Assembly: GCF_039535785.1 (NCBI RefSeq)
Contig: NZ_BAAAXV010000009.1
Location: 1,612,001-1,676,000 of the forward strand
Source of the DNA: Nonomuraea helvata
Lineage (GTDB): Bacteria; Actinomycetota; Actinomycetes; Streptosporangiales; Streptosporangiaceae
Length of the DNA stretch: 64,000 nt
Reading direction: 5' to 3'
Below the pieces are notes generated by a model, which saw only the letters and a program-made list of their open reading frames with translations, had not been told where the DNA came from and made no database searches. Positions 1 to 9,403 of the stretch are shown one piece after another; the first letter of the stretch is position 1, and the number at the start of each line of letters is the position of its first letter. The position numbers were made by a program, and so were the translations under genes.

Positions 1-405
1 GGCGGCGAACCGGTCGGCGCTGCGCCAGTGGGTGGTGGCGCGGCGGCCGTCGAGCAGTCCGGCTTGTGCGAGGACGAACGCTCCCGTGCAGATCGCAACG
101 ATCCTCGCCCCGCGCCGGTGGGCGCCTCGCAGCGCCTCGATGACGTCCGGCAACACAGGGGCGTCGGGAGGCTGCCGGCCGGGGACGACCACGGTGTCCG
201 CCTCCCCTAAAGCGGACAGCCCCGCCTCGACGAGCATCGTGTAGCCGGCGCCGGTCGATAGGAGTCCGGGATGCTCGGCGCAGACCCGGAAGCTGTAGCG
301 GGGCGGCGCGTCCGGCGGGGCGATACCGAAGACCTCGAAGGCACAGGCCAGCTCGAAGGGCGACTGCGGCGGGGTGACCAGGGCCACCACGCGATGAAGC
401 GACAT
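1..405 (-). CDS. GlxA-family (DJ-1/PfpI + AraC) transcriptional regulator, N-terminal part
   Basis: The reading frame is open from an ATG at 405 to the window edge (135 codons), so only the N-terminal DJ-1/PfpI-like sensor domain is visible; the AraC-type DNA-binding half should lie outside. Visible family features are the start MSLHRVVALV, the ELACAFEVFG segment, the PGRQPPDAP turn and the IVAICTGAFVLAQAGLLDG nucleophile-elbow region followed by RRATTHW. GlxA-type proteins are usually about 320 residues. It is divergent from the alpha/beta hydrolase at 477, which is its most likely target. Its upstream region shares motif and spacing with that of a second GlxA-type gene near 7.9 kb. Family assignment is secure; the ligand is unknown. 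Confidence 0.85.
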   Translation of the reverse strand, partial: MSLHRVVALVTPPQSPFELACAFEVFGIAPPDAPPRYSFRVCAEHPGLLSTGAGYTMLVEAGLSALGEADTVVVPGRQPPDAPVLPDVIEALRGAHRRGARIVAICTGAFVLAQAGLLDGRRATTHWRSADRFAA

Positions 406-433
406 GGCAAGAATGTACCTAAGAGTGTCATTC
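406..433 (-). promoter_or_regulatory. Shared upstream motif of GlxA-type gene (copy 1)
   Basis: Reading upstream of the regulator start, the minus strand holds GAATGAC exactly 21 nt before the ATG and TTAGGTA between them. The second GlxA-type gene has GAATGAC at the same distance and TTAGCTA at the same position; 19 of the 28 bases are identical by eye. The segment lies between divergent genes, so it could be promoter, operator or both. Confidence 0.45.
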
Positions 434-476
434 CAGACTCTCGGCCGGGGAGACCGGCCTCGGCCACAGTGGGCCC

Positions 477-1316
477 ATGAGCGAAATCATCGAATCGACG
501 TTGCTGCGGACCGAGATCCAGATCGACGGCGAGCCGGCCAGCTACCTGACCGTGGAGCAGGACGGCCCCGCCGTGCTCCTGCTGCACGGAACCTACTGGA
601 GCCGGGTCTGGCTCCCGGTGATGGACCACCTGGGCACGGCGGGGCTGCGGCCCATAGCGGTTGACCTCCCCGGACTTGGGCGCTCGGGAGGCGAACTCAC
701 CCTGGAAACGGGCACAGTCCCAGCCCTCGCGGACTGGGTGGCGCGCTTCGCCTCCGCGCTGAAGCTCTCCGGGCCGATCGCCGTAGCGGGTCATGACATC
801 GGCGGCGCCGTCGCTCAGCACCTCCTCGTCCACGACCGGCTGGAGGTGTCTCGGTTGGCATTGGTCAACTCGGTCACCTACGACTCCTGGCCGGTGTCCA
901 GCGTGGCCCGATTCCGAGACCCGGTGGTCGTCGCCGCGACCACCGCCGACGAGATTCTCACCGCCCGCCGACAAGCCGTGACACAAGCGCTGGCCGGTGC
1001 CGCCACGGAGCAGCGGATCACGGACTATCTGGACCCGTGGACCGATGCGCGGGTTCGCCGCTCCTGGATGGCCATGGTGGGCGCAGCCGACAACCGCTAC
1101 ACCCGGGATCTCGTCCCCGCCCTGCGACAGAACGCGACACCCAAGCTGCTGATCTGGGGCGAGGACGACGGCTTCCAGAAGGTGGAGTACGCTGAGCGGT
1201 TCGCCTCGGAGATCCCGCATACCCAACTTATACGCATCCCGGATGCAGGACACATCCCCACGGAAAACGCGCCCGGCCAGATCGCACGCGCACTCGTTGA
1301 CTTCTTCACGGCATAG
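477..1316 (+). CDS. Alpha/beta hydrolase (haloalkane dehalogenase/epoxide hydrolase type)
   Basis: This 279-residue protein has the alpha/beta-hydrolase layout: oxyanion region LLLHGTYW, then DLPGLGRSGG, then nucleophile elbow AGHDIGG, and catalytic His in DAGHIPTENAP near the C-terminus. The elbow carries Asp rather than Ser, as in haloalkane dehalogenases and epoxide hydrolases, where Asp forms an ester intermediate. A WGEDDGF segment probably supplies the acid. No signal peptide is seen, so it is likely cytosolic. It is divergent from a GlxA-type regulator and probably controlled by it. The substrate cannot be deduced. The start is supported by family alignment only. Confidence 0.8.
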   Translation: MSEIIESTLLRTEIQIDGEPASYLTVEQDGPAVLLLHGTYWSRVWLPVMDHLGTAGLRPIAVDLPGLGRSGGELTLETGTVPALADWVARFASALKLSGPIAVAGHDIGGAVAQHLLVHDRLEVSRLALVNSVTYDSWPVSSVARFRDPVVVAATTADEILTARRQAVTQALAGAATEQRITDYLDPWTDARVRRSWMAMVGAADNRYTRDLVPALRQNATPKLLIWGEDDGFQKVEYAERFASEIPHTQLIRIPDAGHIPTENAPGQIARALVDFFTA

Positions 1317-6935: not shown

Positions 6936-7913
6936 TCAGGCGCGTGTCGAGGTTGGGGACCGGTCGCTGAACGTGCGGCGGTAGTGTGCCGGCGCCACGC
7001 CCACAGCGCGGGTGAAGTGGTGGCGTAGGTTGGCCTCGGTGCCCAGGCCGGTGAGACCGGCGATGCGGCTGAGCGGCTCCCCCGTCGACTCCAGCAGCTC
7101 GCGCGCCCGCCGCACCCGCTGGGCCAGCAGCCACCGCAGCGGGGAGGTGCCCGTCGCCGCGTGGAAGCGGCGAATCAGCGTGCGCGGCGTGACGTGCTGG
7201 CGGCGGGCCAAGTCGGCGATGGTGAGGGGTTGGTCGAGGTGCTCCACCGCCCACTGGAGCAGCGGCGCCAGGCTTTCGTCCACCCGCTCGGCCAGCGGTG
7301 TCTCTACATACTGGGCCTGCCCGCCGGACCGGTGCGGGGGAACGACCAGCCGCCGGGCGAGCAGATTGGCAAACCCGGCGCCCAAGTCGCGGCGCACCAG
7401 GTGCAGACACAGGTCCAAACCGGCGGCGGTGCCCGCGCTGGTCAACACGTCGCCGTCGTCCACGTACAGGACGCCGGGATCGACGTCCACCTCGGGGAAG
7501 CGCCGCGCGAGCAGGTCGGCGTACAACCAGTGGACGGTCGCACGGCGCCCGTTGAGCAGGCCCGCGGCGGCCAGCACGAACGCGCCCGAGCAGAGCGAAA
7601 CGACCCGCGCCCCGGCCTCGTGGGCCGCCCGCACGGCCGCCACTAGGCCGGGCGGCTGGGCATCGTGAACGTCAGCGCACGCGGGAACGATCACGGTGTG
7701 CGCCGTGGCCAGCTCCTCCAGGCCGTGCACGGTGCCGGCTACGAAGCCCGCCCCGATCGTGGTGCGGCCAGGTTCGGCCGCGCACACCGTGAAGTCGTAG
7801 GGCCACGGGTCGGCCAGGTCGAGACGGGCCCGGCCGAAGACCTCGCACGGAATGGCAACCTCAAAGATCGGCACGTCGTCGGTGAGAGCCAGGGCGACGC
7901 TTCGCACAGTCAT
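6936..7913 (-). CDS. GlxA-family transcriptional regulator (DJ-1/PfpI + AraC)
   Basis: This 325-residue protein has an N-terminal DJ-1/PfpI-like domain (about 1-180; FEVAIPCEVFG, TVIVPACAD, VVSLCSGAFVLAAAGLLNG) and a C-terminal AraC-type double helix-turn-helix (about 215-315; TIADLARRQHVTPRTLIRRF and SRIAGLTGLGTEANLRHHF). It is a cytosolic regulator sensing an unknown small molecule. It is divergent from an MFS exporter gene 71 nt away, the obvious target. The N-terminal half is related to the partial regulator at the left edge, and the upstream regions of both are alike. Confidence 0.88.
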   Translation of the reverse strand: MTVRSVALALTDDVPIFEVAIPCEVFGRARLDLADPWPYDFTVCAAEPGRTTIGAGFVAGTVHGLEELATAHTVIVPACADVHDAQPPGLVAAVRAAHEAGARVVSLCSGAFVLAAAGLLNGRRATVHWLYADLLARRFPEVDVDPGVLYVDDGDVLTSAGTAAGLDLCLHLVRRDLGAGFANLLARRLVVPPHRSGGQAQYVETPLAERVDESLAPLLQWAVEHLDQPLTIADLARRQHVTPRTLIRRFHAATGTSPLRWLLAQRVRRARELLESTGEPLSRIAGLTGLGTEANLRHHFTRAVGVAPAHYRRTFSDRSPTSTRA

Positions 7914-7941
7914 GTCAATATCTTAGCTAATGGCGTCATTC
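7914..7941 (-). promoter_or_regulatory. Shared upstream motif of GlxA-type gene (copy 2)
   Basis: The minus strand carries GAATGAC exactly 21 nt upstream of the ATG, with TTAGCTA (part of the palindrome TTAGCTAA) between. Copy 1 at 406-433 has the same elements at the same spacing. It lies between the regulator and the divergent MFS exporter. Confidence 0.45.
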
Positions 7942-7984
7942 TTGCCGCTGGTGGCGACCCGTCAGCCCCGGCAGGGTTGACGGC

Positions 7985-9403
7985 ATGCCGGAAAACTTCA
8001 ACGGGCGGCGCTGGCTGGTCCTAGCGGTAGTGTCGGCCGCCCAGTTCCTCACCGTGCTGGACCTGTGGGTGGCCAACATCGCCCTCCCGACGTTGCGACG
8101 CGACTTCGCCCCCGCGACGCTGGCGGACGTCTCGTGGATCCTGGACGTCTACGCCATCGTCGTCGCGGCCCTGCTCATCCCCGCCGGGCGAGTGGCCGAC
8201 TCCGCCGGACGGCGCACCTGCTTCCTGGCCGGTCTCGTCGTATTCGGTGCGGCGTCACTCGGCTGCGCACTGGCGCCCACGCTGCCCGTGCTGATCGCCG
8301 GACGGATGGCGCAGGCCGTGGGCGCCGCCGTGCTGATGCCGACCTCGCTCGGACTGGCGCTGTCGGCCTTCCCCGAACGGGAGCGGGGCACCGCGGTCGG
8401 GGTGTGGGCGGCCGTCGGGGCGGCGGCGGCCGGTGCCGGGCCCGTACTCGGCGGGCTGCTCGTTGAGTGGAACTGGCGCTGGATCTTCCTCATCAACGTG
8501 CCCCTGGTCGCCGTCACCGTGGCGGCGGGGCCGTCGATCCTGCCACGGGACGGCGCCAGGCGATCCGGGCGGCGTGTCGGGGCCGTAGGAGCGCTTCTGG
8601 TGTTCGGGGCCGTCGGGCTGGTGTGCACGGCGCTGACCGAGCTGCCCGCCTGGCCACCGGTGCGTACGGAGGGGGTGCTGGCGGCCGGGCTGATCCTGGC
8701 GGCCGGGTTCGCGGTGCACGTCGCGCGCTCGGCGAATCCCGTGGTTTCGCCCCAGTTGTTCACCTCCCGCGCGTTCCGAGCCGGGGTGGCCGGGCTGGTC
8801 GCGTACTACGTCGGCTTCGCCGCACTCCTTCTCGGTACCACGCTGCTGCTGACCGGGCCATGGCGCGTCCCGGCCGTCGCGGCCGCGGCCGGCATCGCGC
8901 CGGGGCCTGTGGCCGCCGGCCTGCTCGCCCCCTTCTCGGGCCGGGTGGCCGCCCGCTTCGGGCGGCGCGGCACTATCCTGGCCGGTGCGGCGCTCTTCGC
9001 CGCGGCGGCCCTCTGGCTCCTGGCCGGCGTGGGCCCGGTGCCCGCCTACCTGTCCGTGGTGCTGCCGGCCATGGTGCTCTGGGGCCTGGCAAACGGACTC
9101 ATTCAGCCGTCGTTGTTCGCCGCGGCCGACACCGCGCCGCCCGCCGAGCTGGCGTCGGGGTCCGCGTTGTTGTCGATGGCCCGCCAGCTCGGCTCGGCTC
9201 TGGGGGTGGCGATCCTGGTGGCCGCGCTGGGTACCGGCCCGAGTGCGGATCCGACGGCCTTCGACCGGGCCTGGCTCGTGGTCCTCGCCGCCGCGGTTTT
9301 GACCGCCGCCGCCGCGCTCGGCGCGGAGCGGCGCGCGGAATTGGAGGTACGCACTCCCGCCGAGCGCGGCCCGGTCGCCTCTGGCAGGCGGGCCCGGCCG
9401 TAG
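7985..9403 (+). CDS. MFS exporter, DHA2 (EmrB/QacA-like) family
   Basis: A 472-residue membrane protein with about 14 hydrophobic segments. The first reads FLTVLDLWVANIALPTLRRD, the DHA2 signature motif (LD-x-x-x-VN-x-A-L-P); the next loop, DVSWILDVYAIVVAALLIPA, and the later AAAGAGPVLGGLL (antiporter motif C) also fit. DHA2 proteins are proton-driven drug exporters of the plasma membrane. It is divergent from a GlxA-type regulator, which probably controls it. The natural substrate is unknown. Confidence 0.88.
   Translation: MPENFNGRRWLVLAVVSAAQFLTVLDLWVANIALPTLRRDFAPATLADVSWILDVYAIVVAALLIPAGRVADSAGRRTCFLAGLVVFGAASLGCALAPTLPVLIAGRMAQAVGAAVLMPTSLGLALSAFPERERGTAVGVWAAVGAAAAGAGPVLGGLLVEWNWRWIFLINVPLVAVTVAAGPSILPRDGARRSGRRVGAVGALLVFGAVGLVCTALTELPAWPPVRTEGVLAAGLILAAGFAVHVARSANPVVSPQLFTSRAFRAGVAGLVAYYVGFAALLLGTTLLLTGPWRVPAVAAAAGIAPGPVAAGLLAPFSGRVAARFGRRGTILAGAALFAAAALWLLAGVGPVPAYLSVVLPAMVLWGLANGLIQPSLFAAADTAPPAELASGSALLSMARQLGSALGVAILVAALGTGPSADPTAFDRAWLVVLAAAVLTAAAALGAERRAELEVRTPAERGPVASGRRARP

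Follow-up and report, generated by a model that had tools for sequence, protein, structure and literature searches.

The 64,000-nt stretch of Nonomuraea helvata DNA analyzed here (the window, to which positions refer, with the reading strand given for each feature) contains two genes for GlxA-type regulators, and the question raised by this locus is what the likeness of the sequences upstream of the two genes means. The first-pass annotation had pointed out a shared, equally spaced motif before both genes and had suggested that the two paralogs bind each other's sites in one small regulatory circuit. The observation itself was confirmed by direct reading. On the minus strand, the ATG at 405 is preceded by GAATGACACTCTTAGGTACATTCTTGCC and the ATG at 7913 by GAATGACGCCATTAGCTAAGATATTGAC, and 19 of the 28 bases are identical. 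GAATGAC lies exactly 21 nt before each ATG and is followed after 4 nt by TTAGGTA or TTAGCTA, which gives a common minus-strand pattern, GAATGAC-N4-TTAGSTA-N10-ATG, with two copies in the genome. A scan of the 11.26-Mb genome for GAATGAC-N4-TTAGNTA returned 2 exact matches, both at the window loci, and 0 control matches, with 0.02 matches expected by chance genome-wide from the G+C content of the window. If bases are assumed to be independent, the binomial chance of at least 19 identities in 28 for one preset pair of this base composition is about 1.6e-5; an alternative background for the same event (1%) was set aside, as it had been derived from pieces that included homologues. The two regulators also face different neighbors, as had been noted, namely an alpha/beta hydrolase on the left and a major facilitator superfamily (MFS) protein on the right according to Pfam, and the gap between the divergent ATGs is exactly 71 nt at both loci.

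Both genes belong to the GlxA type, which combines an N-terminal DJ-1/PfpI domain with a C-terminal AraC-type helix-turn-helix (HTH) domain. Pfam recognizes the two domains in the right protein; for the left gene, the DJ-1 domain lies inside the window, and the full-length protein of 316 amino acids, read from the genome sequence, aligns end to end with the right one. In the following, loci carry L-numbers, which are row labels, the right window gene being L004 and the left one L008. The matching stretches are copies of one control site, which is placed at the regulator's own start codon and, judged from sequence comparison, is probably bound by GlxA-type regulators. This operator is a 35-bp inverted pair of AdpA-type boxes, the last A of which is the A of the ATG in both window genes (Table 1). 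GAATGAC corresponds to positions 7 to 13 of the operator, in the distal half-site, and within TTAGNTA conservation is limited to GNTA (positions 21 to 24), where the −10 region of the regulator begins.

Table 1. Genes, operators and predicted promoter elements at the two GlxA-type loci of the window
Feature	Position	Strand	Basis or remark
Left GlxA-type regulator (DJ-1 + AraC)	1..405	-	Cut by window edge; Pfam DJ-1
Start codon of left regulator, ATG	405-403	-	
Left operator, 35 bp, score 11/12	405..439	-	Conserved in orthologues
Left distal half-site AGTCTGGAATGAC, containing GAATGAC of the first-pass annotation	427..439	-	
Left proximal box TGGCAAGAAT, overlapping regulator ATG; 9/10 to AdpA consensus	405..414	+	
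Predicted −10 of left regulator, TACATT	412..417	-	Family position
Predicted −10 of hydrolase gene, CACAGT, 60 nt from proximal box	465..470	+	Family position
Divergent alpha/beta hydrolase gene, predicted target	477..1316	+	Pfam; divergent in 10 other loci
Right GlxA-type regulator (DJ-1 + AraC), 325 aa	6936..7913	-	Pfam
Right operator, 35 bp, score 11/12	7913..7947	-	Conserved in nearest relatives
Right distal half-site CGGCAAGAATGAC	7935..7947	-	
Right proximal box TGTCAATATC, overlapping regulator ATG; 7/10 to AdpA consensus	7913..7922	+	
Predicted −10 of right regulator, TAAGAT	7920..7925	-	Family position
Predicted −10 of MFS gene, CAGGGT, 59 nt from proximal box	7972..7977	+	Family position
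Divergent MFS transporter gene, predicted target	7985..9403	+	Pfam; divergent homologue in 3 other loci

The operator was defined in a first survey of 169 distinct genes from the same genome, genus, family and order, 58 of which were retained at less than 80% protein identity. Gene starts were taken from the alignment and not from the motif; the loci are related, and the counts below are not counts of independent events. Within 150 nt upstream of the start, TGKC...GMCA pairs showed a peak at a span of 35 bp, found in 27 of the 58 genes against a mean of 0.7 and a maximum of 3 in 100 shuffles, and each other span from 20 to 60 bp occurred in at most 5 genes. Among these 27 pairs, the cells that had played no part in picking them were nearly constant (A8 in 25, G11 in 26, C13 in 26 and T28 in all 27). 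The strict TGKC...GMCA pair was present in 82 of the 169 genes and ended exactly on the A of the ATG in 66 of those; both window operators miss it by one base each, base 1 being the deviating one (AGTC, CGGC). On a twelve-cell score, which was set on this first survey, values of at least 10 were reached by 42 of the 58 relatives and by 29 of 1160 shuffled sequences (2.5%), and 29 of these 42 operators end on the A of the ATG. Lower scores were found for 16 of the 58 relatives and for 20 of the 80 loci of a second survey, L005 and L015 of N. helvata being among the low scorers. The 66 non-redundant operators of both surveys give the consensus TGKCnnGAWYGnC-N12-RWTCnnGMCA. Their boxes fit the AdpA consensus TGGCSNGWWY with means of 8.0 and 8.5 of 10, values raised by the partial selection of the operators for their TGKC cells; the approximate fits at the window loci are 7 and 9 for L008 and 8 and 7 for L004.

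Simpler searches were less informative. An inverted-repeat tool missed the operators because their boxes are imperfect: it reported nothing at the left site and, at the right site, only a short imperfect hairpin, CCGTCAGCCC/GGGTTGACGG at 7959-7983, which overlaps the predicted −10 of the MFS gene. A strict 39-base pattern had 0 matches in 296 genomes of the phylum and is uninformative because it is too strict, missing the N. helvata genome as well. The plain 35-bp dyad pattern is not enriched in that genome, with 6 places against control counts of 8 and 8; two of the six (L009, L013) precede GlxA genes, and a third, L033, stands as an orphan. The operator together with both −10 regions occurred within the window only at the two loci and was found 0 times in 6 random windows. 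The orphan operator L033 (C1:1918433-1918467, minus strand) has strict TGGC/GCCA boxes followed by TG (GCCATG), and the dyad leads into an unrelated frame of 87 codons with no GlxA gene behind it. A frame of 391 codons, MFS-transporter-like by eye, diverges about 80 nt away, and the site may have lost its regulator gene or had it replaced. In 12 genes of the surveys (L053, L098, L099, L101, L103, L108, L112, L126, L127, L132, L134 and L195) the strict dyad ends 12-16 nt upstream of the chosen start, so that the start codon lies outside the operator, and some of them have a TAnnnT-like element between the two.

In the N. helvata genome, the right protein has 29 matches at E <= 0.001. Of these, L004-L015 extend over parts of both domains, whereas the match is confined to DJ-1 in L016 and L017 and falls in the AraC part in L018-L032. 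A usable start was available for 11 of the 12 rows L004-L015; L011 (no start found), L148 (the same gene as L008) and the DJ-1 fragments L016 and L017 were left out. Nine of the 11 DJ-1 + AraC homologues reach an operator score of at least 10 of 12 (L006, L009, L012 and L013, 12; L004, L007, L008 and L014, 11; L010, 10; L005, 9; L015, 8), although the operators of L010 (−12) and L014 (−28) do not reach the ATG and may reflect chance. In the 15 control AraC loci without DJ-1 (L018-L032), the best score was 9 in 11 loci, 10 in 4 and never 11 anywhere in about 3.3 kb of one strand, which shows that a score of 10 is cheap. When all 55 pairs of the 11 homologues were compared, with L006 read from an ATG 3 nt upstream, L012-L013 agreed at 20 of 28 bases, L007-L009 at 19 and L004-L007 at 18. 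The 19 identities of the window pair are not special, therefore, because other pairs of the same genome equal or exceed them. Neighbors of these paralogs include MFS proteins (L005, L013), a zinc-type dehydrogenase (L012), an NADP-binding protein of the saccharopine dehydrogenase type (L006) and a sub-threshold NAD(P)-binding match (L009), and there is none at L010. L006 and many of L043-L097 show a second layout, in which both boxes are mostly TGTC and a candidate divergent ATG lies about 100 nt away behind a leader; the divergent −10 is at an unchanged distance from the operator.

Two predicted promoters occupy fixed places relative to the operator. In 24 of the 29 operators that end on the ATG, a TAnnnT element for the regulator, whose last T is also a score cell, starts at −12 (20 cases) or −13 (4 cases), suggesting that transcription of the regulator probably starts at or beside its ATG. 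Positions 20 to 28 of the operator tend to CGnTAnnnT. In Mycobacterium tuberculosis, TANNNT is centered 7-12 bp before the transcription start, often after CGN, and messages are leaderless for about a quarter of genes (PMC3898074). On the other strand, 39 of 42 operators have an nAnnnT element at 59 or 60 nt from the proximal box, while other neighboring position pairs average 1.9 such cases and reach 5 at most; this element does not contribute to the operator score, and the stricter YAnnnT is found at 25 of the 42. Candidate divergent ATGs, which were taken from frames of at least 120 codons and are not annotated starts, are 70-72 nt away in 37 loci with this divergent −10 (13 non-redundant) and 95-105 nt away, with a leader, in 38 (6 non-redundant).

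The layout is not confined to the order. The second survey covered bacterial genomes, partly overlaps the first one and comprises the best 80 of at least 597 loci. Scores of at least 10 were obtained for 60 of the 80, five Proteobacteria included, and for 37 of 1600 shuffles (2.3%); 35 of the 60 operators end on the ATG and 55 have the divergent −10. Among loci with less than 65% protein identity to the first survey, 24 of 42 reach this score, 23 of the 24 with the divergent −10. Outside Actinomycetota, as judged by record title, 7 of 11 loci score at least 11 (Ktedonospora, an acidobacterial MAG, a Rhizobiales isolate, Paraburkholderia acidicola, Ottowia, Pseudomonas alcaligenes and Cupriavidus), and all of these except Cupriavidus, that is 6 of 7, have the divergent −10; scores of 7-9 were obtained for a deltaproteobacterial MAG and three further Paraburkholderia. 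AdpA-like genes, recognized by LLFSGGP/MFSGGP and which we take to be AdpA, behave otherwise: near the start, 0 of 12 score at least 10 (L252, L253, L258, L262, L263, L269-L274 and L277), all 12 belonging to the 42 loci below 65% identity, and a rescan of 10 of them over as much as 1200 nt gave best scores of 8-9.

The window proteins share 52% identity with each other. A tree of 32 chosen rows places the left protein in a fully supported clade with L149, L139, L156 and L170 and groups the right one with L182, L039 and L179 at 92/83; L262 and L263 form a 100/100 clade of their own without L004 or L008, so that neither window gene appears as an AdpA orthologue. Each clade keeps its own version of the site. 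Relatives of the left gene have roughly GTCnGGAAnGAC...GGTACnTTCnTGCC-ATG, and among the 20 near relatives of the right gene (L178-L197), a TGGC...GACA dyad whose proximal end reads GTGACA is present in 16. A divergent hydrolase gene of this kind recurs at 10 further loci, and in at least 9 of these the gap measures 70-71 nt. A divergent homologue of the MFS gene occurs at three loci (L213, L225, L247), and L182, a closer relative of the right gene, faces a pyridoxal-dependent decarboxylase.

Compared with PDB entries, the right protein's DNA-binding half is closest to AdpA (3w6v). Residue 295 in the second HTH (right-protein numbering) is associated with base 5 of the half-site, N occurring with A in 45 of 58 cases and S with C in 17 of 22, and T being mixed. 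Proteins with the same residue 295 share base 5 more often than proteins with different ones at 50-60% protein identity (59% versus 19%), at 40-50% (40% versus 28%) and at 60-75% (66% versus 43%, 14 comparisons), a matching by which ancestry is not fully removed. For residue 246 and base 3 the identity-matched values are 77% versus 55%, 59% versus 48% and 82% versus 85%, and the link is weak. Both window proteins have N295 and L246, and L009, L012 and L013 have S295. Of the four window half-sites, three carry A5, whereas T5 in the left distal one runs counter to the association of N295 with A5.

These results allow several explanations to be compared. A dedicated circuit, in which each window regulator would bind the site of the other and the pair would jointly control hydrolase and MFS transporter, now seems unlikely. 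It would account for the restriction of the exact 14-base pattern to these two loci and for the presence of GGCAAGAAT in both the left proximal and the right distal box, and mutual binding of the paralogs is possible, since they have N295 and L246 in common and since GbdR binds the cdhR-caiX region (PMC5806209). However, the motif itself shows no circuit. Its conserved cells are family-wide, in a layout that spans families and phyla, other pairs in the genome are equally alike, and the two proteins belong to different clades whose members keep distinct proximal boxes. What stands of the original suggestion is the regulatory site tied to GlxA-type genes, which is strongly supported. A private motif of this pair is rejected, as many relatives carry the operator in the same layout, and the shared motif is whatever any two family members with this layout have in common. 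Recent duplication of a regulator together with its upstream region, which the common window, the distance of only 7.5 kb and the equal gaps might have suggested, was also rejected and has next to no probability, being contradicted by the tree, the 52% identity and the unrelated divergent genes.

It is also conceivable, but quite unlikely, that the operator consists of two half-sites that point the same way and recur at a 21-bp period, like those of CdhR (GGTCGC, 15-bp spacer) and the I1-I2 half-sites of AraC, which are arranged head to tail. The conserved GnC (11-13) and GMCA (32-35) are indeed 21 bp apart, and CdhR belongs to the same subfamily (PMC5806209), but the inner box is a poor fit to the AdpA consensus (mean 5.5 of 10 versus 8.0 and 8.5) and direct TGKC pairs have no comparable peak (best 11 of 138 versus 63 of 138 for inverted pairs). 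One global regulator, such as an AdpA orthologue, might occupy all sites in place of the local product, given that the boxes resemble the AdpA consensus and that AdpA is described as pleiotropic in the literature. We regard this as very unlikely, because the operator is found in Proteobacteria and Chloroflexota at GlxA-type starts and because the bases of the box vary with residue 295 of the adjacent gene. Hardly more can be said for core promoter signals alone, that is, two back-to-back −10 regions at a fixed distance without an operator, which we hold to be slightly less probable still. Both −10s are at fixed places and the GNTA of the original match belongs to the −10 of the regulator, but the most constant cells (TGKC, G11, C13 and GMC) fall outside both −10s and fit a known AraC-family box, and some operators located 11-40 nt from the annotated start still keep the divergent −10 at 59 or 60 nt.

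We therefore favor, as probable, a conserved operator and double promoter of the GlxA/AdpA-like (DJ-1 + AraC) family, at which a dimer on both boxes would repress its own gene and activate the neighbor. The two AdpA-type boxes face each other across 35 bp, and a dimer of the cognate regulator would most likely bridge them. As the proximal box covers the −10 and the ATG of the regulator gene, a bound dimer would shut its own leaderless or nearly leaderless promoter; it is from this overlap that we infer autorepression. The distal box would lie just upstream of the would-be −35 of the divergent gene, where the regulator with a putative ligand might act as an activator in a class II arrangement. 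AraC-type activators of class II bind near −42, and the distal 10-bp box would be centered at about −42 from the predicted divergent start; the distance from the operator to the predicted divergent −10 is fixed, the start sites themselves being predictions. The sign of regulation is uncertain because AdpA shows negative autoregulation in Streptomyces griseus but activation of its own gene in other species (PMC8653842, PMC5840217). CdhR is reported to increase its own expression, with inhibition proposed for conditions that lack carnitine (PMC5806209).

Among the closest known systems are the AraC-type regulators CdhR and GbdR of Pseudomonas aeruginosa with GATase-1 domains, which share with the window regulators the subfamily, a divergent target, self-regulation, a cross-binding paralog with sites of GbdR and CdhR overlapping in one intergenic region, and a 15-bp spacer in a 34-bp contact region; unlike the window operators, CdhR uses direct repeats, a class I position and a 63-nt leader on its own message (PMC5806209). 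The AraC-family regulator SAV742 of Streptomyces avermitilis likewise combines negative autoregulation with activation of adjacent sig8 via inverted repeats, but its box, GCCGA-n-TCGGC, has variable spacing and low specificity, and DJ-1, ThiJ and GlxA do not occur as terms in that paper (PMC5107987). AdpA of Streptomyces is also an AraC-type protein with a ThiJ/PfpI/DJ-1 N-terminal part (PMC5840217), and the structural match and the approximate box consensus point in the same direction. It differs in that AdpA-like genes lack the operator and in that AdpA is global, whereas GlxA-type regulators look local, with one divergent neighbor. RhaS at rhaBAD of Escherichia coli is an AraC-family protein that binds upstream of its target at inverted half-sites separated by a spacer of comparable length; it has no DJ-1 domain, and the start codon of the regulator is outside the operator. 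To our knowledge, few GlxA-type regulators have a mapped site, and no description of this operator layout was found in the literature searched, which was seen in part and lay mostly outside subscription journals.

A wider reading is possible, and we put it forward tentatively: in several phyla, GlxA-type regulators may share a single ancient module of rigid build, in which the regulator's own start codon forms part of an inverted AdpA-type operator, with back-to-back −10s at fixed distances and a half-site code (residue 295 for base 5, perhaps residue 246 for base 3) that would sort the paralogs of a genome into cross-binding classes. GlxA-type regulators are numerous in these bacteria, with 2 to 16 matches per genome at E <= 1e-60 in 54 genomes of the genus. 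If the operator holds, it would provide a predicted site, target and start codon for each GlxA-type regulator at once, and its fixed form would open cross-talk between paralogs to testing and reveal orphan sites that have lost their regulator.
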